Positions 19,911 through 39,965 of a stretch of 39,999 nucleotides of DNA are shown here, piece by piece. The stretch spans positions 1-39,999 of the forward strand of contig JAFWXX010000045.1 of the NCBI GenBank assembly GCA_017522915.1, written 5' to 3'. The notes below the pieces were generated by a model that ran no database searches, had not been told where the DNA came from, and saw only the letters and a program-made list of their open reading frames with translations. Made by a program: the position numbers and the translations under genes. The stretch's first letter is position 1. Every line of letters starts with the position of its first letter. Source of the stretch: Bacteroidaceae bacterium (GTDB lineage Bacteria; Bacteroidota; Bacteroidia; Bacteroidales; Bacteroidaceae).

Positions 19911-19934
19911 AGCTGAGCCGTAAGGCGAAGCTTC

Positions 19935-20010
19935 GACAGTGCCGACAGCAGTCGGTCGCAGGCAGCGTGGCGTAGTCACGCCCTGCGGGATGCGATAAGG
20001 CGGCACTGTC
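19935..20010 (+). repeat. Structured hairpin element A
   Basis: This 76-nt nested hairpin has a perfect outer stem GACAGTGCCG (19935-19944) with CGGCACTGTC (20001-20010). A 12-nt linker ending AGCAGTCGGT follows, then middle stem CGCAGG (19957-19962) with CCTGCG (19982-19987), a 2-nt CA bulge, and inner hairpin GCGTGGC-GTA-GTCACGC (19965-19981) that includes one G-T wobble. The right linker is GGATGCGATAAGG. It shares linkers and architecture with element B and with the array at 29717-30225. It is in the same sense as the upstream antiporter gene. Confidence 0.85.
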
Positions 20011-20120
20011 AAAGAGTACAGATAACAGAGTACAGATAACAGAGAAAGTTGAGAGTAAGCGAGTGCAGAGAAAAAGTTTACTTTTACTATGCCGAGCGAG
20101 AGCAACTTGGGCGAAGCCAA

Positions 20121-20192
20121 CAGAGAACAGAGCAAAGAGAACAGAGCAAAGAGCAAAGAGAACAGAGTAAAGAGTAAAGAGAACAGAGAACA
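20121..20192. repeat. Polypurine simple-sequence tract
   Basis: An imperfect reiteration of GAGCAAAGA, GAACA and GAGTAAAGA. Its complement, CTCTTTGCTCT, recurs at 36348-36406, and similar pyrimidine tracts (TTTCATCTTT) follow the hairpin elements near 30 kb and 39.3 kb. Confidence 0.7.
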
Positions 20193-20223
20193 GATTTCTT
20201 TCTCCTTTCTCATTTCCTCCTTT

Positions 20224-22395
20224 TTACTTGAACTCCAGTACTCCGCCGTTCATTATGTCGCGGTGTGTTATAGTTGTGCCTTCAAGTTCATTGCCGTTCA
20301 GGAATGCTTTTAGAATCCTGCTTTCATTCTCGCTGTGTTCCAAATGGCACTGCACGGTAAAAGTATTGCCGTTGGCAAGGTGCAGTTTCACCTCCTCGAA
20401 CAGCGGCGCACCCACTTCATACACTCCGCCTACGGGGTCAACAGGGTAGAATCCCATTGCCGAGAATACGTACCATGCCGACATCTGTCCGCAATCCTCA
20501 TTGCCGCATAGTCCGTCGGGTGTATTGCGATATAGCTCGCGCATCACCTTTCTTGCGTAATGTTGTGTCTTCTGCTGCTCGCCAATTCTGTTGAAAAGAT
20601 AAATGACATGATGGCTCGGCTCGTTGCCATGGGCATACTGTCCAATCATGCCGGTGCTGAAAATCGGCAACTCTGCATTTTGGGCCGGAGTATATGTGAA
20701 CATGCTGTCGAGCTTCAGCGCAAATCTCTCCTTGCCTATAAGGGAAATGAGGCTGTCAATCTCATGCTGTACACTCCACATGTAGTGCCATGCATTGCTC
20801 TCGCATATATGCTGTGTATATTCATCGGGGTTGAATCCAGGCTGGAATCCGCCATTGCTGTTGCGTGGCTGCATGAATGTCGTTCCGGGGTTATACACAT
20901 TTCTCCAGTTCCTTGCACGGCTGTAGAATACCTCTGCGATGCTGTCATTTCCCATATCCTCAGCCATGCGTGCAATGCAGTGGTCGTCGTACGCATACTC
21001 AAGCGTGCGTGACAATGCCCAGTTGTCGTTGTTGTAAGGGTCTCTTACATCGTACGGAACATAACCTTTCTCCTTGTATAGCCCTATTCCCCTGTAGCTG
21101 TCGCAATTTGCAGTTGCTATACATGCCTTCAGAGCCTTCTCTGCATCGAACCCGTCTATACCTTTGAGATATGCGTCGGCAATGACCGGTACTGAGTGGT
21201 AGCCAATCATCATATCTGTCTCGCTTCCCCACATGTTCCATACCGGCAAGCGGCCATGCTCCTCGTAGAATGCGATGAAAGAGTTTATCATGTCGGGAAC
21301 ACGCTCCGATGCAATATATGTATATAAAGGATGTGCGGCACGGAAAGTGTCCCATAGCGAGAATGTGGAGTAGTTCTTCCAGCCGTCGGCCTTGTGGTTC
21401 TTTCCGTCTGCTCCCCGGTACATGCCGTCAACGTCGCAGTATAGTGTCGGGGCCAGCATTGTGCGGTAGAGTGCAGTGTAGAAGCATATTCTTTCATCGT
21501 TGCTGCCGCCCTTTATCTCTATTTGCGACAGCCGGCTGTTCCAATAATCACGTGTCCTCGCACGGTATCGGTCAAAGTCGTTATGAGGTGCTTCTGCCGC
21601 AAGGTTCTTGGCTGCTCCCTCGTTGCCTGTTCCCGAAATGGCGGTTATTGCAACAAGCCTGCGGTCCTTCTCCTTTGCAAAACTTAGCTGTACAGTTCCT
21701 GCTGTTCTCTTCATCTCCGTGCCTTGCACAAGCGTTATGCTGTCGCACTGCATGGAAATAATAGGGCGCGAGAAACGTGTCCTGAAATATACCTCCTGTC
21801 CTCTTGCCCAGCCGTTCGAGTGCCTGTAGCCCTCTATTGTAAAGCTGTCTGTCTGTACAACGTGGGTGGCTGTCGTTGCATCCCAGTTTGTAGCCTTGCC
21901 AAGATTAAGAAGAACTGTCGCATCTTCCGTAGGGTATGTATATCGCTGTATTCCGCAACGCTCGGTAGCGGTCAGTTCCACGTCAATGCCATAGCTTTCG
22001 AGGTGCACCTTATAATATCCTGCCTCACACTCCTCGCTGTCATGCCTGAAAAGAGAGTGTACGCCGAGCGGTGCTTCCGCTTCGCGCAAAGGAAAGGTGA
22101 CGGGCAGGAAACTTATATCGTATAGGTCGCCTGCACCTGTTCCCGAAAGATGAGTGTGGCTGAATCCTGCAATCGTGCTGTCGGGGTAGAAGTAGCCTGC
22201 AATCCAATCCCAACCCGGCACACCGTTGTCGGGGCTAAGCTGCACCATGCCGAAGGGTGCCTGAGCTCCCGGATACACGTTCCCTTTGTAGTCGGTACCT
22301 ATAATAGGATTCACGAGAGAAGCATAGTCGCTCTGCTCTTTTGTGTTACATGCAAGCATCAATAGTGCTGCAAATATGGTGAGAGTGTTTTTCAT
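20224..22395 (-). CDS. GH92 alpha-mannosidase lipoprotein
   Basis: A calcium-dependent exo-alpha-mannosidase of family GH92, which trims alpha-linked mannose from N-glycans or mannans. The start at 22395 gives 723 residues with a lipoprotein signal (FAALLMLAC, Cys16), so it is anchored to a membrane. The N-terminal beta domain begins NPIIGTDYKGNVYPGAQAPFGM (written here as NPIIGTDY and YPGAQAPFGM, about 29-50). The catalytic domain contains SLWDTFRAAHPLY (about 346-358), the family acid motif CESNAWHYMW (Glu532), NEPSHH (about 591-596) and GNEDCGQMSAWYVFSAMGFYP (GNEDCGQMSAW at about 631), which supplies the base and calcium ligands. Length and motifs are complete. The open frame continues upstream into the permease gene, but that part is antisense to nothing real and the lipobox fixes the start. 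The linkage specificity is not determined. Confidence 0.95.
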   Translation of the reverse strand: MKNTLTIFAALLMLACNTKEQSDYASLVNPIIGTDYKGNVYPGAQAPFGMVQLSPDNGVPGWDWIAGYFYPDSTIAGFSHTHLSGTGAGDLYDISFLPVTFPLREAEAPLGVHSLFRHDSEECEAGYYKVHLESYGIDVELTATERCGIQRYTYPTEDATVLLNLGKATNWDATTATHVVQTDSFTIEGYRHSNGWARGQEVYFRTRFSRPIISMQCDSITLVQGTEMKRTAGTVQLSFAKEKDRRLVAITAISGTGNEGAAKNLAAEAPHNDFDRYRARTRDYWNSRLSQIEIKGGSNDERICFYTALYRTMLAPTLYCDVDGMYRGADGKNHKADGWKNYSTFSLWDTFRAAHPLYTYIASERVPDMINSFIAFYEEHGRLPVWNMWGSETDMMIGYHSVPVIADAYLKGIDGFDAEKALKACIATANCDSYRGIGLYKEKGYVPYDVRDPYNNDNWALSRTLEYAYDDHCIARMAEDMGNDSIAEVFYSRARNWRNVYNPGTTFMQPRNSNGGFQPGFNPDEYTQHICESNAWHYMWSVQHEIDSLISLIGKERFALKLDSMFTYTPAQNAELPIFSTGMIGQYAHGNEPSHHVIYLFNRIGEQQKTQHYARKVMRELYRNTPDGLCGNEDCGQMSAWYVFSAMGFYPVDPVGGVYEVGAPLFEEVKLHLANGNTFTVQCHLEHSENESRILKAFLNGNELEGTTITHRDIMNGGVLEFK

Positions 22396-22426
22396 GATGT
22401 TCAGGTTATATGCCTGCGAATATAGT

Positions 22427-22454
22427 AAAAAAAAGAGGCCGTAGCCTCTTTTTT
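22427..22454 (-). terminator. Intrinsic terminator of the permease gene
   Basis: An 11-bp stem of AAAAAAGAGGC (22429-22439) and GCCTCTTTTTT (22444-22454) with loop CGTA. It touches the permease stop codon at 22455 and on the minus strand ends in eight T residues. This is a textbook intrinsic terminator, so the GH92 gene 32 nt further on probably has its own promoter or depends on read-through. Confidence 0.85.
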
Positions 22455-23903
22455 CTATTCGAAATGGAACGGTTCGAACTGAGAATCCTTGTCCACCCAA
22501 TGCGGTTTGCGCATTGCATATATCACGAATGGTGCTCCTACAACAATTATGCACCCGATGAAGAGCACTGCATACCACACCGTGTTGCTTCCTACCGAGA
22601 TTTGTGCCGGAGGTATAAAGCTGAGCACGAATGCGAGCAGGCTTCCCAGGAATCCCACACCGGCGACAATCCACATTACCGTGTTGCCGCTCTTGCCCAG
22701 GCGGAACGGGCGCGGAGCATCCTTCATGTTGTATCGGAGATATATTCCGGCAGCAAACATCAAGAGGTACATGATAAGGTAGAGAAGCACTGTCAGCTGC
22801 GATAGAATCTGGTAGAAACTCTGTACCGACGGCATAATCACGAACAGCATGCTCAGGAGTGTAACTATGCCTCCTTGTATGAGCAGAATGTTCTTCTGCA
22901 CTCCAATCTTGTTGCTCTTCTGCATGAAAGGCGGCAGGTAACCGGCCTTGCCTACAGCGAAGATACCTTTCGACGGGCCCGAAACCCATGTGAGCACTCC
23001 TGCAAGAACGCCGAACGCGAGTGCAATGGCAATTATCGGCGAGAGCCACGACATGCCCACATACTTGAAGTAGTTGTCGAAGCCCACCAGCAGGCTCTGT
23101 GTCAGGTTGATATCCTTTTGCGGAATGATGATTCCCAAAGCGAAAGTTCCTAATACAAAGATGAGAACCGTGATTATTGCACCCAGGAACACTGCGCGGG
23201 GATAGCTGCGGCTGGGGTTCTCCATCTCCTTTACATGTATTCCGGTCATCTCCATTCCGGCATAGAAGAGGAATATTCCCGATGCCAATACAAGGTTATC
23301 GAGTTTTGTTATATCAGGGAAGAAGCTTCCGCCGAAATCCATTTGCGACTGTCCTCCGCTTATCAGGTAGATGATTGCAAGCACCACAAGCAGTGCAGCC
23401 GGAATGATAGTTCCTACAAGTCCTCCAATCTTTGCAACCTTGCTCACCCAGCCCAATCCCTTGAGCGAGATGAATGTCGCGCACCAATAGATAGCAAGCA
23501 CCACCACGAGCGTGTAGAACTTGTTCGATGCTAGTGTCATGTCGGTAGTGCTGTCCATTCCTATGAAAGCCAGTGACACGGCACCGAATGTAAGCACGGT
23601 GGGGTACCATATTGTGCTCTCAACCCATTGCAGCCATATTGCAACGAACCCTGTTCTCTTGCCGAACGCTTCTCCTACCCAGCGGAACACGCCGCCTTGC
23701 TTGTCCTGGAACATGGCGGCAAGTTCTGCCGCAACAAAAGATGTCGGAATAAGAAATACCAATGCTGCAAAGAGGTAGTAGAAGGCCGAACTTATTCCGT
23801 ATTCAGCCTCTGCAGGCAGTCCTCGCAATGATACCACTGCTGTTACGTTCATTATGGCCAGCGTGGCCACACCCAGTTTTACGCTTTTTGTTAATGTTGA
23901 CAT
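22455..23903 (-). CDS. APC-family amino acid permease, GadC-like
   Basis: A 482-residue inner-membrane transporter of the amino acid/polyamine/organocation superfamily with about 12 hydrophobic helices. The first is VKLGVATLAIMNVTAVVSLRGLP, containing the family's unwound substrate-binding region (IMNVTAVVSLRGLP). Later landmarks are GGVFRWVGEAFGKRTGFVAIW, FLFYAGMEMTGIHVKEMENPSRSYP (FYAGMEMTGIHVKEM is the GadC-type helix-6 motif) and WVSGPSKGIFAVGKAGYLPPFMQ. These resemble glutamate/GABA antiporters and related transporters. No decarboxylase gene is adjacent, so an acid-resistance role is not supported here. It lies downstream of the PFOR gene with a hairpin between them. Confidence 0.88.
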   Translation of the reverse strand: MSTLTKSVKLGVATLAIMNVTAVVSLRGLPAEAEYGISSAFYYLFAALVFLIPTSFVAAELAAMFQDKQGGVFRWVGEAFGKRTGFVAIWLQWVESTIWYPTVLTFGAVSLAFIGMDSTTDMTLASNKFYTLVVVLAIYWCATFISLKGLGWVSKVAKIGGLVGTIIPAALLVVLAIIYLISGGQSQMDFGGSFFPDITKLDNLVLASGIFLFYAGMEMTGIHVKEMENPSRSYPRAVFLGAIITVLIFVLGTFALGIIIPQKDINLTQSLLVGFDNYFKYVGMSWLSPIIAIALAFGVLAGVLTWVSGPSKGIFAVGKAGYLPPFMQKSNKIGVQKNILLIQGGIVTLLSMLFVIMPSVQSFYQILSQLTVLLYLIMYLLMFAAGIYLRYNMKDAPRPFRLGKSGNTVMWIVAGVGFLGSLLAFVLSFIPPAQISVGSNTVWYAVLFIGCIIVVGAPFVIYAMRKPHWVDKDSQFEPFHFE

Positions 23904-23987
23904 GGTTATCCGTTTTTAAATGTATTTATAGCATGGTAGGATAACAATGCCCGTCGGCATTTGGTTCGTGTACTGCTGCTGAATAAG

Positions 23988-24035
23988 TATATAATAGAAC
24001 GGGAGTGCTTTTTGGCACTCCCGTTCTATTATATA
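23988..24035 (-). terminator. Long hairpin downstream of nifJ
   Basis: A 21-bp perfect stem (23988-24008 with 24015-24035, core AACGGGAGTGC and GCACTCCCGTT, base TATATAATAG) around a 6-nt loop. It sits 15 nt past the nifJ stop. There is no long U tract after it, although the stem base is AT-rich. Terminator or mRNA-stabilising hairpin. Confidence 0.65.
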
Positions 24036-24050
24036 GTGGCTGTCAGAATT

Positions 24051-27617: not shown

Positions 27618-27696
27618 AACGCATTTGAATTTATGATTTGTATTATCCGTTATATCGAACATCAGTCTGTGCCTTGCCTGCATCGTATGATAATGT

Positions 27697-27710
27697 TGAT
27701 GCAAGCATCA
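27697..27710. promoter_or_regulatory. Palindrome in the nifJ / GH10-like divergent promoter region
   Basis: TGATGC and GCATCA flank AA. The site lies just inside the predicted nifJ transcript, 80 nt before its ATG, and about 60 nt upstream of the TACATTTG box (27771-27778) of the divergent gene. It could be an operator or an mRNA hairpin. No regulator gene is adjacent. Confidence 0.35.
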
Positions 27711-27793
27711 CAAATCATACAAAAGTACAAAATATTTGGGAACACCTCTATAAAAAAGCACGAAAATGAGTACATTTGTAATTATTTTTATTT

Positions 27794-29455
27794 ATGAAAA
27801 AGAATCTCCATATACTGCTTCTTCTGCTCCTTTTCCTGCCGCTGCAACTGCCGGCCCAAACGGGTGCACCTCCCAAGTATGAGTACCGTGCCGTGTGGCT
27901 CACGACAGTCGAGAACCTCGACTGGCCGAAGACGATAGTAAAATCCCCTTCCGATATAACTGAACAGAAGAATGAGCTTATTGTTCTTCTCGATTCCCTT
28001 AAGGGCATGAATGTCAATACCGTCATGCTCCAGTCGCGTGTCCGTGGCGACCTCATCTACCCGTCAGCCATAGAACCCTTTTCTCATATCCTTACAGGTA
28101 TTCCGGGCAAGAATCCCGGCTACGACCCGCTTGCCTTTGCAATCGAAGAGTGTCACAAGCGCGGAATGCAGCTTCATGCATGGCTGGTCACCATGCCTTT
28201 GGGCAAGGACGACCTCATACGCCGTCAGGGCAAGCTCGCTCTTTCAAAAAGGAAGAAGTCACTCTGCACGCGATACAAGGGTGCCTGGTACATGGAACCA
28301 GGCAATCCTGCAACAATACCTTATCTTGTAGAGCTTGTCAGGGAACTCGTATCGAACTATGATGTTGACGGCGTGCATTTCGACTATATAAGATACCCCG
28401 ACCGCACCAACGGCTATCCCGATGCCGCCCTTCACCGCAAATACGGCAAGGGCCGCTCTCTTGCCAACTGGAGACGTGGCAACATAACCGCATTGGCATC
28501 TGCGCTCTACAAATGCGTAAAGGAAATCAAGCCCTGGGTGCGCGTGAGCTGCGCCCCGCTCGGCAAGTACAATAACCTAACCCGTTACAAGTCATTCGGC
28601 TGGGATGCCTACAATGCCGTTTTCCAGGATGCGCAGGCATGGCTGCGTGACGGAATAATGGATATGATTCTGCCGATGATATACTTCGACAAGAACCATT
28701 TCTATCCCTTTGTCCTCGACTGGCAAGAGAACTCCAACGGCCGTCACGTCATTCCGGGCATAGGAATATACCGTCTTATGCCGCAGTACGGCGGCTGGCC
28801 CCAGTTAGAGATTGAACGTCAGCTGAATACCTCCCGCAGTGCCGGTACTGCAGGAACGGCAATGTTCCGTGCCGAACAGCTGCTGGGCCTCGGCCATGCG
28901 GCATATACCAAAGTCTATTCCTCTCCTTCGCTCGTTCCGCCCATGTCATGGGCCGGGACAGCACCCCGGCAGCCGCAGGGGTTTAAGGCAGTGCGTGATG
29001 CCGAAGGCATTTCCCTTGCGTGGGATAGAGTAGAGGCCGAGAAAGGCTTCCCGGCTATAAAGTACAATGTGTATGTCGCTTTGGATACGGTTGTCGATAT
29101 TGACAGAATCTCTTCGCTTGCGGCATCCTCTATGGATTCTGTTTCTTACCGTTGGAACTGCATTACAGATGCTCCTGTAACGGTTGCCGTGACAGCAGTC
29201 AATGCCTACGGAATAGAGAGTGCCCCGGCCATAGCTTCGTTCCGTGTCGAGGATGTTCATGTAAAGGGAATCTCCCTGCCTGAGTTGCCCGGATGGGGCT
29301 ACAGGCTTGAAGTGTGTGACCTATTCGGTCGCAAGATATATTCAGGACGTTATGGCACGGATGTCGGTGTCGAAGGATTGCAAGGCGGCAACTACATGCT
29401 TAAGGTCTATGACCGTCACGGCGCAGTAGTGCTCTCAAGAACTTTCAAAAGGTGA
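27794..29455 (+). CDS. Secreted GH10-like (DUF187) hydrolase with C-terminal sorting-type domain
   Basis: An exported 553-residue protein with signal peptide (1-21, ending LPAQ). Residues about 28-345 form a DUF187/GHL10 TIM barrel: YRAVWLTTVENLDWP (31-45), NVNTVMLQSRVRGDLIYPS (74-91), MQLHAWLVTMP, the signature DGVHFDYIRYPD (192-203) and ILPMIYFDK. A fibronectin-type beta domain follows (about 392-485). The last 60 residues have the pattern of a type-A T9SS sorting domain (VCDLFGRKIYSG ... GLQGGNYMLKVYD ... RTFKR). Family members act on peptidoglycan or glycans, but few are characterised, so the substrate is not claimed. A TACATTTG box at 27771-27778 lies close to the start codon. The gene has its own terminator at 29460-29500. 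Confidence 0.88.
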   Translation: MKKNLHILLLLLLFLPLQLPAQTGAPPKYEYRAVWLTTVENLDWPKTIVKSPSDITEQKNELIVLLDSLKGMNVNTVMLQSRVRGDLIYPSAIEPFSHILTGIPGKNPGYDPLAFAIEECHKRGMQLHAWLVTMPLGKDDLIRRQGKLALSKRKKSLCTRYKGAWYMEPGNPATIPYLVELVRELVSNYDVDGVHFDYIRYPDRTNGYPDAALHRKYGKGRSLANWRRGNITALASALYKCVKEIKPWVRVSCAPLGKYNNLTRYKSFGWDAYNAVFQDAQAWLRDGIMDMILPMIYFDKNHFYPFVLDWQENSNGRHVIPGIGIYRLMPQYGGWPQLEIERQLNTSRSAGTAGTAMFRAEQLLGLGHAAYTKVYSSPSLVPPMSWAGTAPRQPQGFKAVRDAEGISLAWDRVEAEKGFPAIKYNVYVALDTVVDIDRISSLAASSMDSVSYRWNCITDAPVTVAVTAVNAYGIESAPAIASFRVEDVHVKGISLPELPGWGYRLEVCDLFGRKIYSGRYGTDVGVEGLQGGNYMLKVYDRHGAVVLSRTFKR

Positions 29456-29459
29456 TTAA

Positions 29460-29500
29460 GCAGGCCGGTGAGCGCGTAGAACGCGCAGTCGGTAATCTGC
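29460..29500 (+). terminator. Terminator of the GH10-like gene
   Basis: A compound stem: GCAG with CTGC outside, CCG with CGG in the middle, and GCGCGT with ACGCGC inside around AGA. It is followed by AGTTTTAATTGTTTCTTTTT. It starts 5 nt past the stop codon. Confidence 0.55.
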
Positions 29501-29551
29501 AGTTTTAATTGTTTCTTTTTGAAGAGCGTTGCGACGAAAGCCTCAGGTTTA

Positions 29552-29629
29552 GATAATGCTGGTAGTAAATGGTCACGCGAAGCACAGACGAAGTTTGTGC
29601 CGCGTGGGTTACGACAAGGCAGCATTATC
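29552..29629 (+). repeat. Structured hairpin element B
   Basis: A 78-nt nested hairpin. The outer stem is GATAATGCTG (29552-29561) with CAGCATTATC (29620-29629), perfect. The left linker ends AGTAAATGGT, the middle stem is CACGCG (29574-29579) with CGCGTG (29601-29606), the bulge is AA, and the inner hairpin is GCACAGAC-GAA-GTTTGTGC (29582-29600) with one G-T wobble. The right linker is GGTTACGACAAGG. Segment lengths (10, 12, 6, 2, inner, 6, 13, 10) equal those of element A, although the stems have different sequences. Confidence 0.85.
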
Positions 29630-29716
29630 AATGAATCTCAAAATATTGCAAAATAAGAGATTTCTCACATCTGTTCGAAATGACAGATACGCGATCGTCT
29701 TTGCTCTTTCCACTTT

Positions 29717-30225
29717 GACACCCTTTGCTGTTCGCAACCCACGCGGTGCAACTTGCAGCTGCACTACGCGCGACCTATTGCTGCAAAGGCTATCGAAGCT
29801 TCCAGCTTTCATCTTTCATCTTTCATCTTTTCTCTTTGACACCCTCGTCTAATCGCAACCCGCAGGGCGTGACCTTGCCACGCTACCTGCGACCCATTGC
29901 TGCCAAGGCTATCGAAGCTTTCAGCTTTCATCTTTGACAACCTTTGCTGTTCGCAACCCACGCGGTGCAACTTGCAGCTGCACTACGCGCGACCTGTTGC
30001 TGCAAAGGCTGTCGAAGCTTTCAGCTTTCATCTTTGACAACCTTTGCTGTTCGCAACCCACGCGGTGCAACTTGCAGCTGCACTACGCGCGACCCATTGC
30101 TGCAAAGGCTATCGAAGCTTCGCTTTCATCTTTCATCTTTTCTCTTTGACACCCTTTGCTGTTCGCAACCCACGCGGTGCAACTTGCAGCTGCACTACGC
30201 GCGACCTATTACTGCAAAGGCTATC
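29717..30225 (-). repeat. Tandem array of five structured hairpin elements (C1-C5)
   Basis: Copies at 29717-29794, 29838-29913, 29936-30013, 30036-30113 and 30148-30225, all with the element sense on the minus strand. C3 and C4 are exactly 100 bp apart. Each has an outer stem of about 12 bp (CCTTTGC with GCAAAGG at its core), a left linker AGCAATAGGT, a 6-bp middle stem, TA bulge, inner hairpin, and right linker GGTTGCGAACA. C1, C3, C4 and C5 share stems CGCGCG/CGCGTG and inner GTGCAGCT-GCA-AGTTGCAC. C2 instead has CGCAGG/CCTGCG and GCGTGGC/GTCACGC, the stems of element A. Copies are joined by TTTCATCTTT-type spacers and share the flank AAGCTTCGAYAG with element A. They lie downstream of, and in the same sense as, the MCE gene. 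Confidence 0.9.
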
Positions 30226-30282
30226 GAAGCTTCGCTTTCCACTTTCATCTTTCATCTTTCATCTTTTCTCTGTTCTCTCTCT

Positions 30283-31185
30283 TCACTTCTCTTTTCTGCC
30301 GAAGATTGAGAAATGCACATATCTCTTCGGGTGCTCCTTCAGGTCTTCGAGGAGTTCTGTGGCCGCAGCACATGTACTGTTCAGGTTGTTGTACAGGGTG
30401 CTGTCCTTCAGCAGCATTCCGGCAGTTCCTTCTCCGTTGCTGAGAGCCTCGGTAATCTGCTTGAGGTTTGTCGCGCTCTCTTCAAGTGTCGCGAACATTC
30501 TCTTGTAATCGACCTCGCTGAGCTGTGACGAAACAGCAAGCATATTATCCTCTATCTTGATAAGTTTCTCTGTAGCTTCAGGAATCTCGTTCTTCAGCAG
30601 CGAGTTCAGCATGGCGGTTGTCTTGCCTAACTCTTGTGTAAGCTGTTCCACGTTGTTTACCGACCTGTTTATCGACGGGTTGCCCAGGATATTGTTCAGC
30701 GATACCAGTATTGAATCCACTTTCGGTATCATGGCATTTATCTGCGGCAGCATGTTGCCGGCCTCCTGCATCGCACCGCCGTTCAGGTAGCCGTTTATGG
30801 TATCTCCGGGAGCCACGAACTTGTTGCCCTTTCCCAGTCGCAGGCTTATTGTGCTGCTTCCCAGCATCTTGTTGTTCACCTCGGCATAGCTGCCTTGCGG
30901 AATATTCAGTCTCTTGTCAACGTTGATTTCAACGAATACGCCGTCGGTGCTGTTGAAGTCGTATATGATATTGCTCACATTTCCCACCTTGTAGCCGTTG
31001 AGGTAGATAGGGCTTGTGTTTACAATCTCGCCGATGTTGTCGAACTTTACATAGAATTTCTTTCCCTCCTTGAGCACATTCACACCCTTGAAGAAGTTTA
31101 TCAGCAAGTATATGATGAGCAGTGCCAGAATACCCAACAATCCTACCCAAAGTTCTCTTGTAAAAGTCTTTTTCTTATCCATCAT
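30283..31185 (-). CDS. MCE/MlaD family protein (300 aa)
   Basis: A membrane-anchored periplasmic protein of the MCE family, which binds lipid for transport between the membranes. One transmembrane helix (about 13-31, LWVGLLGILALLIIYLLINF) is followed by the MCE domain (about 38-118) with KKFYVKFDNIGEIVNTSPIYLNGYKVG and GSYAEVNNKMLGSSTISLRLGKG, then a long helical region (about 150-275) that would form the family's coiled-coil needle. No partner ABC ATPase or permease (MlaE/MlaF) is in this window, so the transporter may be encoded elsewhere. The ATG overlaps the amidase stop (sequence ATGATG, with TGA inside), so translation is coupled. Either of the two Met codons could be the start. Confidence 0.92.
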   Translation of the reverse strand: MMDKKKTFTRELWVGLLGILALLIIYLLINFFKGVNVLKEGKKFYVKFDNIGEIVNTSPIYLNGYKVGNVSNIIYDFNSTDGVFVEINVDKRLNIPQGSYAEVNNKMLGSSTISLRLGKGNKFVAPGDTINGYLNGGAMQEAGNMLPQINAMIPKVDSILVSLNNILGNPSINRSVNNVEQLTQELGKTTAMLNSLLKNEIPEATEKLIKIEDNMLAVSSQLSEVDYKRMFATLEESATNLKQITEALSNGEGTAGMLLKDSTLYNNLNSTCAAATELLEDLKEHPKRYVHFSIFGRKEK

Positions 31186-32339: not shown

Positions 32340-32384
32340 ATCTGTAATCCGTGTTCTTCCTTGTTTTTTAGGAGCATATTTCTG

Positions 32385-32415
32385 CAAAATTAGTTTATTT
32401 TATAGTAAATGCAAA
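32385..32415 (-). promoter_or_regulatory. Predicted promoter of the amidase-MCE operon
   Basis: The minus strand has TTTG at 32415-32412, a 19-nt spacer and TAATTTTG at 32392-32385, matching the Bacteroidota pattern TTTG/TAnnTTTG. Transcription would begin near 32378, about 40 nt before the preferred ATG at 32339. This excludes the longer reading frame starting at 32387. Confidence 0.6.
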
Positions 32416-32534
32416 GTGCTATGCCCTAAATTGATTTCTCTCTGTTCCGAAAAAGACAAAAAATGCGTTGTTTTGTGCTAACCGGTTTCTTGATTCTTCT
32501 GCATCAATCCGTTCATTTTATAATCTCATGCTTA

Positions 32535-32565
32535 TTGCATAATCCGCAGTTTGTGCGTATATTTG
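32535..32565 (+). promoter_or_regulatory. Candidate malQ promoter ahead of the tandem repeats
   Basis: TTG at 32535-32537, a 20-nt spacer and TATATTTG at 32558-32565 match the Bacteroidota promoter. If used, the malQ mRNA would carry all four hairpin repeats in a leader of about 350 nt. Each later repeat carries the near-match TATATTCG, so the promoter itself may have been copied and weakened. Confidence 0.4.
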
Positions 32566-32900
32566 CCTTACGGCGCATATACTGCCTGCACTCGCTGTAA
32601 AAAATTGAAGTAAACTTCATATTTCTTGCTCGTTTGTGTGTATATTCGCCTTACGGCGCATATACTGCCAGCACTCGCTGTAAAAAATTGAAGTAAACTT
32701 CATATTTCTTGCTCGTTTGTGTGTATATTCGCCTTACGGCGCATATACTGCCTGCACTCGCTGTAAAAAATATTGAAGTAAACTTCATATTTCTTGCTCG
32801 TTTGTGTGTATATTCGCCTTACGGCGCATATACTGCCTGCACTCGCTGTAAAAAATATTGAAGTAAACTTCATATTTCTTGCTCGTTTGTGTGTATATTC
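32565..32900 (+). repeat. Four tandem 83-85 bp repeats before malQ
   Basis: Units start at 32565, 32648, 32731 and 32816, with a truncated fifth at 32901. The first two are 83 bp and the last two 85 bp, differing by an inserted TA after the A run. Each unit has a hairpin CGCC-TTAC-GGCG whose stem extends to TATATT and CATATA (one mismatch), the palindrome TGAAGT-AA-ACTTCA, and a possible alternative pairing of TTACGGCG with CGCTGTAA. Between units there is almost no sequence change, so the amplification looks recent. Confidence 0.9.
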
Positions 32901-32927
32901 GCAAGGTTTATGCAAAAACACGTAAAA

Positions 32928-35615
32928 ATGAAATTTCTGGAGTTCAATATACGTTACGAAGTCGATGACAACAGTGTAGTCTATCTTCGTTACAATCTCG
33001 ACGACAATGGCAGCATCACCGAAGGTGTTCTCTCTCTACGCGAAGTGCAGCGTGGTTGGTGGCAAGGTTCCATGCAGGTAGATGACAGTTACGACCGCAT
33101 ACACTACGGCTATGAGCTGCTTACCGGCGGCAAGCTGTCGTGCAGGGAGTGGAACGGCACGCCTCACCACTTGCGTTTCAACTGCGTGAACGACAACTAC
33201 ATCGTTTACGACATGTGGCGCGATTCCCCCATCGGCTATTATGGCCAGACCAACCTCTTCCGTTTCTTCGACAAACGTGGTCTCTCGCTCGATGAGCCAA
33301 GCATCAACTGGTACAACCGCAGCGTAACCTTCTCGTTATATGTGACCGGTCTTCGCAAGGGCGAGCGTCTCTACCTCTCCGGCGATGCCGATGTGCTGGG
33401 CCGTTGGAACACCGCCAATGCGCTCCCCATGCAGCAGCGTGTGCCCAACCGCTGGAGTGTGACATTCGATGTTGCCAACCTATGGAGCGGCAGTCTCTAC
33501 TATAAGTTCATAGCAATCGGAGAAGACGGTATTGTCCGTTGGGAACAGGGCGAGAACCGCCACATACTGTTGCCCGATTTCGAGGCATCCACAAATTACT
33601 ACTATCAGCTCGACGAACTCCATTTCGATGCTCCCTCACTTCGCCTGGCAGGAACAGTCCTTCCCCTCTTCTCCATGCGTTCTGCGCACGGGTGGGGCAT
33701 AGGCGACTTCGGCGATATAAAGCTCATGGCATCCTGGCTTGCCGAGACCGGGCAGAACATTCTCCAGCTCTTGCCGTTGAACGACACTACCGTGTGCGGC
33801 GGAAATGAAGATTCCTACCCCTATAACTGCGTTTCGGTCTTTGCATTGAACCCGATATATGCCGACCTCTCCGTTCTTCCTCGTCTGTCGAGCGCAAAGC
33901 GCAACGACTACTACAGCAAGGAGCGCGAGGCACTGAACGCACTCCCGACAGTGAACTATTCGGCTGTATATAGGCTCAAGATAAATTATCTCCGCGAACT
34001 TTTCGATGAGATATCGGGCGATATCCTCTCAAGCGACAGCTATAAGCTGTTTGCCAGGGAACAGGAGGAGTGGCTCAAGCCATACTGTATCTTCCGTTTC
34101 CTCTCTACACGCCTTCACTGTAACATCTGGGAATGGAAGGAATACCCATATTACGACAATACCACTTGGGATAGAGTAGCGGCGGAGTACCCCGATGCCG
34201 TTCGTGAGACGCGCTTCTATTCATTCGTGCAGTACATCCTCTACACTCAGCTCAGCGAGGCTCATGCCTATGCCAACAGCAAGGGTGTCGCACTTAAGGG
34301 CGATATCCCCATCGGTGTTGCTCCTAACGGTGTCGATGTATGGTGCTGCCGCGAGCAGTTCAATCTTTCGGTTTCAGCCGGTGCGCCTCCCGACATGTTC
34401 TCTGCCGATGGTCAGAACTGGGGCTTCCCCACATACAACTGGCAGGTTATGGAAGCCGACGGTTACACATGGTGGCGTCGTCGCCTGCAATACATGTCCC
34501 GTTTCTTCGATGCCTACCGCATCGACCACGTACTCGGTTTCTTCCGCATCTGGGAGATACCGCGTACAGCCAAGAGCGGTCTTCTGGGCAGCTTCTCTCC
34601 CAACAAGCCATTGAGCCGTGAAGAGATAATAGCATCGGGCTTCGAGTTCGACGAAGAACAGCACACCGTGCCGTATATCGACGATGCGTTGCTCAAGAAG
34701 CACTTTCCGCGCAAGGCAAAGCAGATAGTTGAGGCATTCCTCGACCCGCAGCCTGGCGGAACATACCGTTTCAAGCCCGAAATCGCGAATGCGAACCTGC
34801 TGGCATATTACATATACGAACGCACTCCAAAGTTATCGGCAGTAATGAAGGAGTCACTTCTGCGAATATACGGCAACGTACTCTTCATGCGTGACCTGTA
34901 CGAAGAAGGAATGTTCGTTCCGCGTATCCTCGGCAGCGACACCGAAGCCTACGAACAGCTCGATTTTGGCGACCGCATAGCATACGACCACCTCTACGAG
35001 GATTATTTTTATAATCGCCACACCATGTTCTGGTATCGTGAGGGTATGCGTAAGCTTGCTCCGCTGTTGGCATCTACCACAATGACAGCGTGCGGTGAAG
35101 ATCTCGGCATGATACCGGCATGTGTTCCCTGGGTAATGAAGAACCTGCAGATACTCTCTCTTGAGATACAGCGCATGCCAAAGCTCTTTGGCGAGATGTT
35201 CGCACGTCCCGAACATTACCCGTATCTCTCTGTCGCCACACCATCGACCCATGATATGAGTACTCTCCGTGGCTGGTGGAAAGAAGACGAGGCACTGTCG
35301 CAGCAGTTCTATAACAATGTTCTCGGCTTTGAGGGCAAGGCTCCTGCCGACATGGACGGCAATATAGCGCGTGCAATCCTCCTGCAGCACCTTCACTCCC
35401 CCTCTGCATTTGCATTGTTCGCATGGCAGGACTGGATGGCTATGGACGAACGTCTCCGTCGTGCCAACCCCGATGACGAACGCATTAACGTACCTTCTAA
35501 CCGCGATCACCAGTGGTGCTACCGTATGCATCTCACTATAGAGCAGCTGTTGGAGGAACGTGCATTCAACGATACCGTGCATCGTATGGTTGAGGATTCC
35601 GGCCGTCTTGTTTAA
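32928..35615 (+). CDS. malQ: 4-alpha-glucanotransferase with N-terminal CBM20 domains
   Basis: Amylomaltase (GH77) that transfers maltosyl or longer glucan chains, in starch and glycogen metabolism. The start at 32928 (MKFLEFNIRYEV) gives 895 residues. Alternative Met codons at 32910 and 32889 lie within repeat-derived sequence. Two CBM20-like starch-binding domains occupy about 1-115 and 125-235 (second: LYLSGDADVLGRWN, YYKFIAIGEDG). The GH77 domain follows, with SYPYNCVSVFALNP, KGDIPIGVAPNGVDVW, the nucleophile Asp533 in YRIDHVLGFFRIWEIP, the acid Glu724 in CGEDLGMIP and Asp776 in TPSTHDMSTLRGWW. This long form with starch-binding domains is usual in Bacteroidales. The FNT gene follows on the same strand after 72 nt. 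Confidence 0.96.
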   Translation: MKFLEFNIRYEVDDNSVVYLRYNLDDNGSITEGVLSLREVQRGWWQGSMQVDDSYDRIHYGYELLTGGKLSCREWNGTPHHLRFNCVNDNYIVYDMWRDSPIGYYGQTNLFRFFDKRGLSLDEPSINWYNRSVTFSLYVTGLRKGERLYLSGDADVLGRWNTANALPMQQRVPNRWSVTFDVANLWSGSLYYKFIAIGEDGIVRWEQGENRHILLPDFEASTNYYYQLDELHFDAPSLRLAGTVLPLFSMRSAHGWGIGDFGDIKLMASWLAETGQNILQLLPLNDTTVCGGNEDSYPYNCVSVFALNPIYADLSVLPRLSSAKRNDYYSKEREALNALPTVNYSAVYRLKINYLRELFDEISGDILSSDSYKLFAREQEEWLKPYCIFRFLSTRLHCNIWEWKEYPYYDNTTWDRVAAEYPDAVRETRFYSFVQYILYTQLSEAHAYANSKGVALKGDIPIGVAPNGVDVWCCREQFNLSVSAGAPPDMFSADGQNWGFPTYNWQVMEADGYTWWRRRLQYMSRFFDAYRIDHVLGFFRIWEIPRTAKSGLLGSFSPNKPLSREEIIASGFEFDEEQHTVPYIDDALLKKHFPRKAKQIVEAFLDPQPGGTYRFKPEIANANLLAYYIYERTPKLSAVMKESLLRIYGNVLFMRDLYEEGMFVPRILGSDTEAYEQLDFGDRIAYDHLYEDYFYNRHTMFWYREGMRKLAPLLASTTMTACGEDLGMIPACVPWVMKNLQILSLEIQRMPKLFGEMFARPEHYPYLSVATPSTHDMSTLRGWWKEDEALSQQFYNNVLGFEGKAPADMDGNIARAILLQHLHSPSAFALFAWQDWMAMDERLRRANPDDERINVPSNRDHQWCYRMHLTIEQLLEERAFNDTVHRMVEDSGRLV

Positions 35616-35687
35616 TTGGGAAATAATGATAGGCAGCCGGGCATTCAGCAGTTGTATAAGAAACGAAAATAATAAACAATTCTCAAA

Positions 35688-36314
35688 ATGGATATGAAAG
35701 ATACATTCCGTTCTGCAGTGCTCTCAGGCATAGCGGTCGCTATCGCCGGTTGGGGGTATCTTGCCTTCCCGAACATCATTGGAGCCGTTCTATTCTCCTT
35801 CGGTCTTCTCACTGTAGTCAACTACAAGCTGAAGCTATATACGGGAACAGCCGGTTTCGTGCCTCTCCGTTACGAGGATGGCCGTTCACGCTGGCTGCGT
35901 GCCATAGGTGAGCTTCTTTTCATTCTCTTTGCCAACATCGTAGGCTGTCTGCTCATCTCCCTTCTTGCGCGCATGTCGCCCATAGGGTTGGGAGAGTCGG
36001 CGCAGAAGATTCTCGAAGCGCGTCTTGCCATAGGCCCTCTTCGTGCAGGCCTGTTGGCGATAGGTTGCGGTTTCATAATGACAACAGTCGTCACCTTTGC
36101 GCGCGAAGGCAAGCCGTTGGCACTCCTCTTCGGTGTACCGCTCTTCATCAACTGCGGCTTTCCGCACTGTCTTGCCGACGCATTCTACTACATGACAGTT
36201 CCTCTCTCCTATACAGGAACACATCTGGCCCAGGTAGCAATGCTTTATCCCTGCCTGGTAATAGGAAACTTCATAGGATGTAATCTTTACCGTTTCATTG
36301 CACCGAAACATTAA
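35688..36314 (+). CDS. Formate/nitrite transporter (FNT) family channel, short form
   Basis: A 208-residue membrane protein with six hydrophobic helices and FNT-type signatures: YKLKLYTGTAGF in helix 2-loop (about 46-57), FANIVGCLLISLLARM, GCGFIMTTVVTFARE, and LFINCGFPHCLADAFYYM (about 151-168), where the His corresponds to the central pore His of FocA-like channels. It is shorter than the 260-285 residues usual for FocA/NirC because loops are trimmed. The substrate is probably a small monovalent anion such as formate, nitrite or hydrosulfide. Formate would suit a PFOR-using fermenter, but this is inference. The start could be Met1 or Met3. The stop codon lies within a 46-bp perfect palindrome. 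Confidence 0.85.
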   Translation: MDMKDTFRSAVLSGIAVAIAGWGYLAFPNIIGAVLFSFGLLTVVNYKLKLYTGTAGFVPLRYEDGRSRWLRAIGELLFILFANIVGCLLISLLARMSPIGLGESAQKILEARLAIGPLRAGLLAIGCGFIMTTVVTFAREGKPLALLFGVPLFINCGFPHCLADAFYYMTVPLSYTGTHLAQVAMLYPCLVIGNFIGCNLYRFIAPKH

Positions 36315-36347
36315 AAAAATGGGGCCCCATTTTTTTAATGTTTCGGT
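36302..36347. terminator. 46-bp perfect palindrome overlapping the FNT stop codon
   Basis: Two 23-bp arms meet without a loop at 36324/36325: ACCGAAACATTAAAAAAATG runs into GGG on the left, and the right arm is its exact reverse complement. The last four codons of the FNT gene and its TAA (36312-36314) are in the left arm. The A7 and T7 runs around GGGGCCCC make it a terminator in either direction. Confidence 0.75.
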
Positions 36348-36406
36348 ACTCTTTACTCTTTGCTCTTTGCTCTTTGCTCTCTCCTCTCTCCTTTCTCCTT
36401 TGTTCT
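36348..36406. repeat. Polypyrimidine simple-sequence tract
   Basis: This reiterates ACTCTTT, GCTCTTT and CTCTCC between two GGGGCC-type hairpins. It is the complement of the purine tract at 20121-20192. Confidence 0.7.
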
Positions 36407-36445
36407 CTACAAAAAAAATGGGGCCTCAGCCCCATTTTTTTGTAG
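36407..36445 (-). terminator. Terminator of the M60 peptidase gene
   Basis: CTAC, A8 and TGGGGC (36407-36424) pair with GCCCCA, T7 and GTAG (36429-36445), loop CTCA, with one extra A in the left arm. It begins 5 nt past the stop at 36451. The core A-run plus ATGGGG is shared with the palindrome at 36302-36347. Confidence 0.75.
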
Positions 36446-36450
36446 TAGAA

Positions 36451-39168
36451 TTACTTTATCAATCTCTTTTTGCCATTGATGATGTAAATGCCCGGTTTTG
36501 TAATCTCGTCGAGCTTGCGGCCGGTGATGTCGTAAATAACATTGCTCTTTGTGTTTTGCTCAATTATCTCCTCTATTCCGGTGTTGTTCGCCTCTACGCG
36601 TACAATGGTCCACATGGAGTTGTCAACAAGCTCGGCTGTGCACACGACATTGTATTCGCTGTTGAGAGTGAGGTATGCACCTTCATTCTTTGTGCTGAAG
36701 AATACTTTGCCGTCGTTCGTGTAGTTTGCCTTGAATACAACTGCACTGCTCTTGTCCGCACCGCTGCACGATGTGCCAAGGTTCATTTCAAAGTCATTTA
36801 TATAAAGCCCGTTCTTGTTCTTTATATAGTAGTGGTGCAGCTCTCCTGTGCTTTCGAACATCCACTTCTTGTCGTCCGAGGTGGTTGCTGTCTGGGTCTG
36901 CTTGTTTGCCTTAAGCCCATACTTGTCGTAGCACAGCTGGTATGCCTTCTCCTTGGCATTGGTGAGTTTATATACGTCCAGCTCCTTCAGATATGCACGT
37001 GCATTGAGGTCGGCCGATATACGCTCTATTTCTGCGCTTAGCAGTGCAGCCCACTCCTTGTATGTGTGTACACTTGTGTCCTTGTTGTCGGCAGCATCCT
37101 TTGCATTGTTGTAGAGGTCGGTGAGTGTGGCAAGTGCATCGGTATAATAGTATCCTATATCACGTCCGGTTGCTGTCTGTTTGTTCATGATTGACTTTGC
37201 TGTAGAAAGTACCGCATTGAGTGCCTCTATCTGCATCTCTTCGTTGTCGCTCTCTGCAATGTCCTGCAGCTCGGCATCTGTCCCGTCAGCCTGTGCCGCA
37301 ACAACCCTGAGGTTCGCACCCTGAGCCGAAACCGGAATCTTCAATGAATATTCGTTGTTGAACGAAAGAAGTTCTCCGTTGTCGGCATTGTACAGTTTGA
37401 AGCCGAGTGCACCTTTGGCACTCTCTTCGGCTACGATAGTCACATAGTTTGTGCTCTTCTTGTAGTAGTAGCCTTCAGCCTTAACGCTCTCGTCGATATA
37501 ATCCTCCCACTGGCCGGTGCTTCCCATTGTACCGATAGCGTACTCATCGCTGTAGTCCAGACGGTAACCGTCTACACCGTCTGTTCTCTTCGAGGGCTTT
37601 ATGCGGTCCTCTATGAACATTAGATGCCCGCCTTTTTTGTCATATTGCTGCATGCGTGCGCGGCTTGCCTCGGCCTCCTCCTCTGTCAGTGATACAAAAA
37701 ATGTACCGTAATCACCCACTTCGGCTTTGTTCATCGGCTCGAAGAATCCCCATGCATCGAAGAACTCGCTGAGGTCCATCTGTGCAATCTCGCAACACTT
37801 CTCGGCGAACTTGAGTTGGTCTTTGACAGCGCTTGTCTGTGGTCCTTTCTCCAGTGGATTCCTACGCAGGGCCTCAAATAGCCTTGGATAGAATGTTGTG
37901 TCTTTCTTTGCTGCATGGAAATAAAGATACAGCTGGAAGAACATGCGTGACTTGCCGATTACATCGCCTCTCAAAGGAAAGGCTACCTTGTTCTCAAAAT
38001 CCTCCTTGCATCCTTTTACGCCTGTACCGCGTGTTGTGGTCTTGCCTACACGGAACAGATGGGCATTGGAGAATAAGTTGTTGCTCGCTTCGGTACACGA
38101 TACAATGTTGATTGCTCCTTGGTTTATGTGTCCGATTTCATGAGCCGGTCCCCACATCTGTCCGGGGTTCGCATATACTGTGGCCCATGGCAAAATGTCC
38201 TTTATCGTGTTGTGCTCGTAGTAGGTGTAGTTACTTGTGGCATACATGTACATGCCTTCGTATCCGTCGCGTGCCATGAGCAGGCTGTTGAAACGGTCGT
38301 AATAGTTGTTGACACCCATCAATTCATGTTGCCATGTGAGGCACCGGTCCCACCAGCCAATGGCATCTGTGATAGTGTTTGGGCATACTTTCCTTATGTT
38401 ATCAAGTTCCATATGAAAGAGTACCCTGTCGCCTTTAACCTGCACACTGTAGTGCTTGAAGTGGTTGGCAAGCATATCGCGCCAGTCTTCATCGGTGTGT
38501 CTGCTCTTGTCGAAGTAACCGTTTACGTTACCGCCTTCAATGTGTATCCTTGCTGTCGGGTAGTCGGCAAGTCTGGGACTGTCATCCGTAGTATCCGTTG
38601 TTACGGCGTAGCTTATGAAGAGTATAGCATTATCCTGTGCAACGGTAACCATGTTCAGACCCTTGACAAGTGTCTTCTCGGAATTCATTACACCCCAGTC
38701 GGCAAATGGCTCGTTTTTTGCTATTTCGTTCAGTTTTAGGAATGTACCTGCCTTTACATTATCTACGAATATAAATAATGTATCTCCCTTCTGGGCGCTT
38801 ATGCCGGTAGGGTGTTGCAGTGCTGAATATTGGTATGTTTTCAGGGAGTTTCCCCAACTGTATACATTGTTGTGTGGCTTGTAATCTGCAACGCGGAATT
38901 CTTTTTCACGTTTTGCCCAACTGTCGTTTTTTACTTTAAGGGCTATCTCGACAAGTTCCTTTGGTGTATCTCCCAGAACTTCGAGCAGTTGCTCATCGGT
39001 CATTGCAGAATAGGGCACTGCAAGCTCGCTGCAGCTGCCATCGGTAAAGTACCTTTTGAATTCCGCGTAGCGTCCCTGGGCATTTTCAGGAGTAATAGTG
39101 CTTTGTGCATTAATGTTGATACTTATTGCCAAGGCAATAATTGATAGTAGTAAAGTTTTTATTTTCAT
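36451..39168 (-). CDS. Secreted M60-like (enhancin/mucinase) metallopeptidase
   Basis: A zinc metallopeptidase of the M60-like family, known for cleaving mucin-type O-glycoproteins. The start at 39168 gives 905 residues with a signal peptide (MKIKTLLLSIIALAISININA). Met codons at 39174 and 39195 are alternatives but lie closer to the promoter. After an N-terminal beta region, the catalytic domain has the zinc motif HEIGH (His343, Glu344, His347) and a downstream Glu360 in SCTEASNN, preceded by GQMWGPA. Later parts are a helical segment (about 640-760) and a beta-trefoil-like segment (about 768-860), followed by the tail VIYDITGRK...PGIYIINGKK shared with both C10 proteins. A full TTTG/TACTTTTG promoter lies at 39193-39224. 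Specificity for mucin is inferred from the family and neighbours. Confidence 0.92.
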   Translation of the reverse strand: MKIKTLLLSIIALAISININAQSTITPENAQGRYAEFKRYFTDGSCSELAVPYSAMTDEQLLEVLGDTPKELVEIALKVKNDSWAKREKEFRVADYKPHNNVYSWGNSLKTYQYSALQHPTGISAQKGDTLFIFVDNVKAGTFLKLNEIAKNEPFADWGVMNSEKTLVKGLNMVTVAQDNAILFISYAVTTDTTDDSPRLADYPTARIHIEGGNVNGYFDKSRHTDEDWRDMLANHFKHYSVQVKGDRVLFHMELDNIRKVCPNTITDAIGWWDRCLTWQHELMGVNNYYDRFNSLLMARDGYEGMYMYATSNYTYYEHNTIKDILPWATVYANPGQMWGPAHEIGHINQGAINIVSCTEASNNLFSNAHLFRVGKTTTRGTGVKGCKEDFENKVAFPLRGDVIGKSRMFFQLYLYFHAAKKDTTFYPRLFEALRRNPLEKGPQTSAVKDQLKFAEKCCEIAQMDLSEFFDAWGFFEPMNKAEVGDYGTFFVSLTEEEAEASRARMQQYDKKGGHLMFIEDRIKPSKRTDGVDGYRLDYSDEYAIGTMGSTGQWEDYIDESVKAEGYYYKKSTNYVTIVAEESAKGALGFKLYNADNGELLSFNNEYSLKIPVSAQGANLRVVAAQADGTDAELQDIAESDNEEMQIEALNAVLSTAKSIMNKQTATGRDIGYYYTDALATLTDLYNNAKDAADNKDTSVHTYKEWAALLSAEIERISADLNARAYLKELDVYKLTNAKEKAYQLCYDKYGLKANKQTQTATTSDDKKWMFESTGELHHYYIKNKNGLYINDFEMNLGTSCSGADKSSAVVFKANYTNDGKVFFSTKNEGAYLTLNSEYNVVCTAELVDNSMWTIVRVEANNTGIEEIIEQNTKSNVIYDITGRKLDEITKPGIYIINGKKRLIK

Positions 39169-39192
39169 AAGCATGTCTGTTCTAATACTTTT

Positions 39193-39224
39193 CAAAAGTA
39201 CTCTATTTGCTTCTAAAATCCAAA
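39193..39224 (-). promoter_or_regulatory. Predicted promoter of the M60 peptidase gene
   Basis: The minus strand has TTTG at 39224-39221, a 20-nt spacer and TACTTTTG at 39200-39193, a full match to the Bacteroidota consensus. Transcription would start near 39186 and give a leader of about 18 nt before the ATG at 39168. Confidence 0.6.
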
Positions 39225-39266
39225 TTATTCACCCCTCAGTCACTCGCTTCGTTTTCTTTGCACTTT

Positions 39267-39343
39267 GACAACCTTGCTGTTCGCAACCCAAACGGCATAA
39301 CCTACGGCTATGCTACGTTTGACCTGTTGCTGCAAAGGCTGTC
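39267..39343 (-). repeat. Structured hairpin element D
   Basis: A 77-nt copy of the hairpin family, with its sense on the minus strand. The left linker is AGCAACAGGT, the middle stem CAAACG with CGTTTG, the bulge TA, the inner hairpin GCATAGCC-GTA-GGTTATGC (one G-T wobble), and the right linker GGTTGCGAACA. The outer stem has one bulge. The linkers are nearly identical to the array at 29.7-30.2 kb, while both inner stems are replaced by different complementary sequences. Confidence 0.85.
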
Positions 39344-39419
39344 GAAGCTTTCATCTTTCATCTTTCATCTTTGCTCTGTTCTACTCCTCACCCCTTGCAA
39401 AAAGTTGCAATAGGTCCCG

Positions 39420-39965
39420 TTGGGGAACTCCTTAGGGAACATAAATGTTCCGCCGTCGCAAACATTGCTCATTCGCAATGGTGTCTCAAACAACTTTTCG
39501 TTCAAACAGCGGGGAGAGGACAACTCGCTATTCACGAAAAACATCATCACGTATATGCACCGCTCAAACAATTCCTCTCCTTATCCGCTGTTTGAACGGT
39601 TGTTTGCTATAATTTGACTTTGTCTAGCCTGCTTGCGTTCGTGGTGCAATTACAAACGGGTTTGTATTGCACTCACTTACCCGCAGCCTTTATCGGTGAC
39701 GGATATTAAGGACATTACCTTTGGCTGTCGTATAGCAATGGTAATTCTAAAAAAGAAACCGGCACAGTCTAAATCACAATTCAATGCCGTTGGAATTCAT
39801 GAGCAAGCGAGGACATGCCTGCAGTGCGGCAGCGTTATCTTTTTATTATAACGCTGGACCGCACAAGTTCCGGAGCGCATGAATTACAACGATTAGCATT
39901 GAATGGCACCATTGCGGACGAGCAATGTTTGCGACGAAGGGAGCTTTAGCTCCCCAAAGGAGTGT
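39420..39965. mobile_element. Possible non-autonomous element with structured inverted ends
   Basis: The left end (39452-39482, read on the minus strand) and right end (39908-39938) match at 27 of 31 positions, starting ACCATTGCG and ending GTTTGCGACG. Each end carries CATTGC...GCAATG and, further outside, a hairpin: GGAACAT-AA-ATGTTCC on the left (39436-39451) and GGAGCT-TT-AGCTCC on the right (39941-39954). Both are followed by AAGGAGT. The interior is non-coding and holds strong hairpins at 39487-39606 (arms of about 33 bp including GTTCAAACAGCGG), 39644-39672 and 39779-39904. No transposase is present and no target-site duplication was confirmed, so the mobile-element call is tentative. 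Confidence 0.4.

Follow-up and report, generated by a model that had tools for sequence, protein, structure and literature searches.

The eight hairpin elements that we describe here (A, B, C1-C5 and D) lie in a 39,999-nt stretch of DNA from a Bacteroidaceae bacterium (hereafter the window), which is contig C39 of a 2.41-Mb genome assembled in 60 contigs and 92% complete. We propose that they belong to a family of non-autonomous mobile elements that would work as a folded single strand, like repetitive extragenic palindromic (REP) elements or the ends of IS200/IS605 insertion sequences, and our confidence in this reading is evenly poised. The units have been inserted at new sites, mostly behind genes, and their pairing has been kept by selection on one strand. 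An earlier note on this DNA had described hairpins whose stems change and stay paired; it saw neither the mobility, nor the mostly sense placement behind genes, nor the frequent complementarity of the 5' flank to the end of the host gene.

All eight elements were recovered by a linker pattern on both strands, A and B on the plus strand and C1-C5 and D on the minus strand, with cores of 49 or 51 nt. The linkers, the four versions of the middle stem (CGCAGG/CCTGCG, CACGCG/CGCGTG, CGCGCG/CGCGTG and CAAACG/CGTTTG) and the 2-nt bulge with A as its second base (CA, AA or TA) agree with the earlier description, and its unit length of 76-78 nt proved too short, as the unit also takes in class-specific feet at either side and, on its 5' side, a small palindrome. 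A complete unit consists of this small variable palindrome followed by a hairpin of about 80 nt with three stacked helices, and terminates in GTCAA; the hairpin contains the 2-nt bulge, asymmetric internal loops that are conserved and a G-T wobble that is retained, and it is often capped by a purine-N-A triloop. In a consensus of 65 sequences, conservation of sequence at the ends is limited to the outermost TCGACAA/TTGTCAA, and the internal loops are the most conserved parts. Eight copies are present as claimed, but they are not eight independent ones, since C1, C3, C4 and C5 repeat one another in tandem almost without difference (the starts of the five C elements are spaced at 98-121 nt); the window alone therefore holds about five distinct states. 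Folding of six of the eight (A, B, C1, C2, C3 and D) gave z values of -2.6 to -5.4 against dinucleotide shuffles as RNA, and of -1.6 to -5.0 as DNA. The 51-nt core is identical in D and in a copy at C24:42371; their outer arms differ, those of the C24 copy being unmatched, and C2 has A-type stems inside a C-type frame; copies therefore seem to exchange parts.

The pairing of these elements appears to be under selection, as had been suggested. A covariance model with 30 pairs (R1) was built from 16 of the 17 matches that the linker motif gave in the own genome (reversed control, 0). In the 143 matches that R1 found on 80 of 92 named stretches with the strict pattern, 93.6% of cells were paired, compared to 75.4% when shuffled and 26-47% when slid, and 24 of the 30 pairs had changes on both sides. 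Covariation was scored by a script in which changes are placed on a tree of 65 sequences below 92% identity and compared with a tree-aware null, that is, the phylogenetic background. The mean score was 0.586; in 300 simulations the null had a mean of 0.183 and a maximum of 0.244, and p was below 0.01 for 14 of the 30 pairs. This upholds the statement that a folded RNA or a single-stranded DNA, either of the two, is under selection. Pair 44-52 is a G-U wobble in 123 of 125 copies though both its neighbours vary. With this pair excluded, G-U and A-C cells numbered 59 and 16 (20 and 3 in the inner helices), and this excess implies that folding takes place in the drawn strand: one strand is apparently held to a fold, with the proviso that the copy-finding model favours G-U and may inflate the excess. 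Among the 112 distinct inner hairpins that could be parsed, 70 have a 3-nt loop (GNA in 38 of them) and 9 a 4-nt loop. PMC4686876 describes GNA loops as giving extraordinarily stable DNA mini-hairpins, and for this reason we take the fold to lean towards DNA, which the loop lengths would also suit better.

Evidence of mobility comes from five pairs of occupied and empty sites (Table 1), in which the inserted piece was each time the small palindrome plus the big hairpin. These pairs were retained from 16 rows examined after 242 candidates had been refiltered; the remaining 11 were set aside because they involved arrays, repeats or a different element at the site in question. We found no target duplication of constant length across the five. 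Element B belongs to a subfamily with near-identical copies at other places in the own genome, where ten B-type stretches are near-identical and seven are identical over 93 nt, four of these seven lying at contig ends and possibly counted twice. A separate intergenic repeat, GTCATTCCGA..GCGACGAGGAATCTC, hosts nested B-type elements in stretches L085, L088 (about 6780-6880, for example), L100 and L117, and at 29533-29650 of the window. Simple tracts rich in purines or pyrimidines (CTTTCATC, CTTTGCT, AGAGAACAGAGCAAAG) adjoin elements at 29699-29850, 30120-30300, 36343-36408, 39340-39391 and 20009-20195, and AAAG sites within such tracts may serve AAAG-class elements as targets.

The placement of the elements relative to genes was examined for 142 non-redundant matches among the 143. 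Locus edges account for 59, positions between tandem genes for 42, convergent gene pairs for 30 and divergent pairs for 8, and only 3 lie inside an open reading frame (ORF) of 150 aa or more; at a cut of 100 aa, 30 of 143 lie inside ORFs, 29 of which are small. The upstream gene points at the element on the same strand in 60 of 80 cases and is antisense in 20. Within 80 nt of a gene end we counted 17 sense and 6 antisense elements; the corresponding numbers at gene starts, over the same distance, were 8 and 2. Element strand and local GC skew are in agreement at 25 of 70 loci (p 0.02, uncorrected for gene strand). The antiporter gene that precedes element A is present in 39 of 44 genomes, and element A occupies the same place in 3 of the 30 antiporter loci read. 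Behind a guaA-like gene (a name that we assume from translations and a match), R1 matches, either to elements or to longer three-way variants, occur at 24 of 26 loci, often as arrays; in the same set, full-length guaA has R1 matches at 0 of 4 loci, and one full-length guaA in another stretch (L163) does carry an element. In stretches L194-L219, the region 3' of the 436-aa GuaA-like gene holds variable arrays of longer three-way-junction versions, with T-rich hairpins between them and ending in TCAATGGGA, followed further on by remnants that by eye resemble recombinases and integrases. Also by eye, the GuaA-like protein seems to be without the usual amidotransferase cysteine.

The 60 sense placements behind genes count at once against a mobile single strand and in favour of another explanation, which we consider possible at low confidence: a structured RNA in the 3' ends of transcripts, serving processing, stability or protein binding, its fold kept by selection on the RNA, and spread by recombination or by an RNA route such as reverse transcription. 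RNA tolerates G-U best, so the excess of G-U over A-C on the sense strand suits this role, as do the RNA folding scores of the six elements and the longer three-way-junction variants behind the guaA-like gene; the 20 antisense cases, the lack of an Rfam match and the predominance of 3-nt over 4-nt loops, which would suit DNA better, do not. Spread through RNA is further weakened by the finding of reverse transcriptase (PF00078) in only 18 of 44 genus genomes, the own included. No intrinsic terminator (a hairpin followed by a T-run) was found at 29400-30350 by a consensus scan, nor on inspection of the 3' flanks of the elements.

Returning to the folded mobile strand, we found that its feet and 5' flank carry additional pairing. 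In 64 foot classes the 5' foot forms 2.16 Watson-Crick pairs of 4 with the 3' foot, compared to 1.17 when permuted (maximum 1.58 of 5000), and part of the left flank recurs at the right end, with a longest match of 5.39 nt compared to 4.42 when permuted (maximum 4.92 of 1000). A 5'-flank helix that abuts the hairpin had a mean score of 6.17, against 3.54 for shuffled flanks and 3.91 twenty bases upstream, in 76 elements kept of 187 (60 were redundant, 37 had no GA at the expected place, 10 had no TCAA and 4 were at edges). Where a gene stop lies at most 70 nt upstream on the same strand (n=32), 20 elements have a significant abutting helix and the 5' arm starts inside the coding sequence in 19, of which 9 are behind a guaA or guaA-like gene; in the other 12 no helix reaches significance, and two of these (L110, L081) follow genes of the same K-V-L-V-K kind. 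The segment before the conserved fold frequently reads as the reverse complement of the 3' end of the host gene and matches its particular codons: GTTTTGGTGAAG-TAA with TCACCAAAAC in L105, GTTTTGGTCAAG-TAA with TTGACCAAAAC in L112, GTTCTCGTTAAA-TAA with AACGAGAAC in L133 and, at the ends of guaA-like genes, GGAGTAA with TTACTCC in L209 and GGAGTGA with TCACTCC in L219. We suggest, very tentatively, that the 5' segment is a changeable guide by which an enzyme picks gene ends, or else a target end copied into the element at insertion; either way, the address would be rewritten in each lineage.

That several of the small 5' palindromes match host-specific codons perfectly is also what copying of one arm from the other would produce. 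Template switching between arms at replication would be a mutational source of paired changes that needs no selection, leaving the elements as passive repeats, and according to a 2022 PNAS paper (PMC8794818) it can reportedly create and maintain RNA hairpins through compensatory changes. We regard it as an unlikely origin of the paired changes: arm copying would replace the G-T wobble, a terminal C-A mismatch and the asymmetric loops, yet all of these are kept, and G-U intermediates occur and exceed A-C, which argues for stepwise change on one strand. Template switching may nevertheless shape part of the small 5' palindromes, without explaining the kept wobble and loops.

The family extends beyond the window. 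R1 found 76 matches in the own genome at E<=10 and 68 at E<=1e-3 (150 of 865 candidates were scored, and some matches are at contig ends and possibly counted twice). Further copies in related genomes, as expected of the family first described, were found in a search of 61 genomes: all 37 of the same genus, the own included, have 1-69 matches each, and 0 of 24 genomes from other families of the order have any; because 70 candidates were scored per genome, the high copy counts are floors. A family-wide search of 101 genomes gave matches in seven, five of the same genus and two of another genus, the latter with one copy each, both behind the same large secreted-protein gene; genome G080, matched in this search, adds to the 37. 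In a search of 395 genomes of the phylum, matches were confined to the own genome, and the 0 of 394 others is a weak negative given 10 candidates per genome and strict filters. All 92 named stretches are metagenome-assembled genomes with the title Bacteroidaceae bacterium or Bacteroidales bacterium; where the title states a source, it is the rectum, colon or cecum of ruminants. A 331-base stretch had no match in plasmid and phage collections, and viral_contigs held 0 stretches with the strict pattern. The assertion that no family of this layout had been described was borne out by Rfam, which gave 0 matches above the gathering threshold in the window and 0 at E<=1 in 29530-30250, and by the literature searched. 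We considered an autonomous version, in which a gene would split the hairpin, and rejected it; eight left-half motifs without a perfect right half were by eye variants or truncations.

Comparison with known systems places the elements closest to REP elements and IS608. PMC3733652 and PMC8266576 define a REP as a palindrome of 20-50 nt, one end of which carries an unpaired GTAG or CGTC, and PMC3733652 says that CGTC REPs are without a dedicated transposase; the literature further describes the E. coli REP transposase as cutting 5' or 3' of a single folded REP. Like REP elements and REPtrons, the elements are dispersed extragenic imperfect palindromes, mostly behind genes and clustered, with one hairpin and sites on either side; they differ in being longer and three-tiered, in stems that change by paired substitution, and in an own genome without a PF01797 match. 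With IS608, and with the ends and derived palindrome elements of IS200/IS605, they share a folded strand and, apparently, a guide-like 5' foot that might pair both to a target upstream and to the right end; no target duplication of constant length was seen in the five site pairs (left-right repeat lengths vary here); they differ in having one complex hairpin rather than a left and a right one, lineage-specific targets, and no Y1 transposase found in the own genome. Integron attC sites are likewise hairpins conserved in structure and variable in sequence in which unpaired bases mark one strand, whereas the arrays here hold no cassette genes between copies where read, have spacers of tens of nt, and end in TCGACAA/TTGTCAA.

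An ordinary miniature inverted-repeat transposable element (MITE) of a DDE insertion sequence with palindromic ends seems to us distinctly improbable. The elements are small, non-autonomous and numerous, and flanking repeats of 4 and 7 nt occur in two site pairs; these lengths differ, and it is the internal loops and pairing that are conserved, not long terminal repeats, sequence at the ends being kept only in the outermost heptamers. Classical GTAG or CGTC REP elements moved by their RAYT transposase would also be extragenic, clustered, imperfect palindromes with a bulge behind genes, and are scarcely credible here with two defining features contradicted, as neither tag was seen at the foot of the approximately 80-nt consensus of 65 sequences read by eye, and PF01797 is confined to a few genus genomes, as detailed below.

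If the preferred reading of a mobile folded strand holds, an enzyme would recognise that strand, cut it and join it. The 5' foot would serve as a guide, base-pairing both to a short target upstream and to the copy of that target at the right end, and such guide pairing would let lineages differ in target (AAAG, AATGACA, TGATAA, TGGGAGTAA). After insertion, units would multiply in tandem. The family would then be an undescribed REP-like mobile hairpin, resembling a REP element or an IS608 end in action and not filed as either.

Several observations weigh against this reading. No mobiliser came out of the searches: the IS200/REP transposase PF01797 (Y1_Tnp) was rejected as a candidate with 0 matches in the own genome, at 92% completeness, and matches in 5 of 44 genus genomes, and the five genus stretches that carry it have no R1 match within the surroundings fetched. 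Reverse transcriptase PF00078 was rejected as well, as was PF01548, the DEDD transposase of IS110 bridge-RNA elements (0 in the own genome, 7 of 44 in the genus). None of the three is in every high-copy genome, and DDE transposases were not searched for. As DNA, C1, C2 and C3 fold weakly, each weaker than z -2 alone. The abutting helix reached p<=0.05 in only 27 of the 76 elements, and the 5' palindrome often matches 9-22 nt of the host, beyond the need of a 4-nt guide. Of the five site pairs, two (AAAG and AATGACA) have clear flanking repeats, and in the others these are ambiguous or imperfect. Finally, arrays and orthologues are not independent observations, so the context counts are less independent than they appear.

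Table 1. Coordinates of the elements in the window and of the occupied/empty site pairs (a slash marks the junction)
Feature	Position or locus	Strand	Remarks
Element A, small 5' palindrome	19910..19933	+	AAGCT GA GCC GTAA GGC GA AGCTT, read from sequence; begins at antiporter-gene stop codon; stem of 5, p 0.07, alone not significant
Element A, big hairpin	19933..20012	+	R1 match 19927-20017, 89.2 bits
Element B, small 5' palindrome	29538..29550	+	AAGCC TCA GGTTT; p 0.40 alone
Element B, big hairpin	29550..29631	+	R1 match 29544-29636, 90.8 bits
Element C1, big hairpin	29715..29796	-	R1 match 29710-29802
Element C2, big hairpin	29836..29915	-	A-type stems; R1 match 29831-29921
Element C3, big hairpin	29934..30015	-	R1 match 29929-30021, 104.1 bits, best of the genome
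Element C4, big hairpin	30034..30115	-	R1 match 30029-30121
Element C5, big hairpin	30146..30227	-	R1 match 30141-30233
Element D, big hairpin	39265..39345	-	R1 match 39260-39351, 94.2 bits
Site pair i	L200, inside recombinase-gene remnant		Empty ACATTTGAAAG/TTTCGC in L195; occupied after GAAAG, with AAAG again at right end
Site pair ii	Window 29679-29690		Empty AAATGACA/GATA, AAATGACA/GATACGCG; paralogous stretch L082 (contig C21) occupied, AATGACA on both sides
Site pair iii	L085		B-type copy nested in another intergenic repeat; empty in L088
Site pair iv	L094 vs L200, behind guaA-like gene		Insertion at stop codon, TGA to TAA
Site pair v	L127 vs paralogous stretch of L127		Right flank imperfect

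Other features of the window were also noted. Tandem repeats with an 83-85-nt unit that has its own hairpin (GTATATTCGCCTTACGGCGCATATAC) occupy 32516-32941, directly 5' of a 4-alpha-glucanotransferase gene, and a 57-nt inverted repeat (39427-39483 and 39907-39963; 81% complementary, 423 nt apart) lies near the contig end. Perfect long palindromes at 23988-24035 and 36302-36347 resemble bidirectional terminators, and a predicted protein of 3166 aa with many internal repeats is encoded at 287-9787 on the minus strand.

In the many copies of the family, structure is preserved and sequence varies; they form a natural series that includes both occupied and empty sites, so that the rules by which a folded mobile element is recognised can be read from sequence. 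The copies also offer a test of selection versus template switching as the source of paired changes in stems. If it is true that pairing between the 5' segment and the gene end is the targeting step, these would be very small elements that choose their sites by base pairing, with an enzyme that is not the known one.

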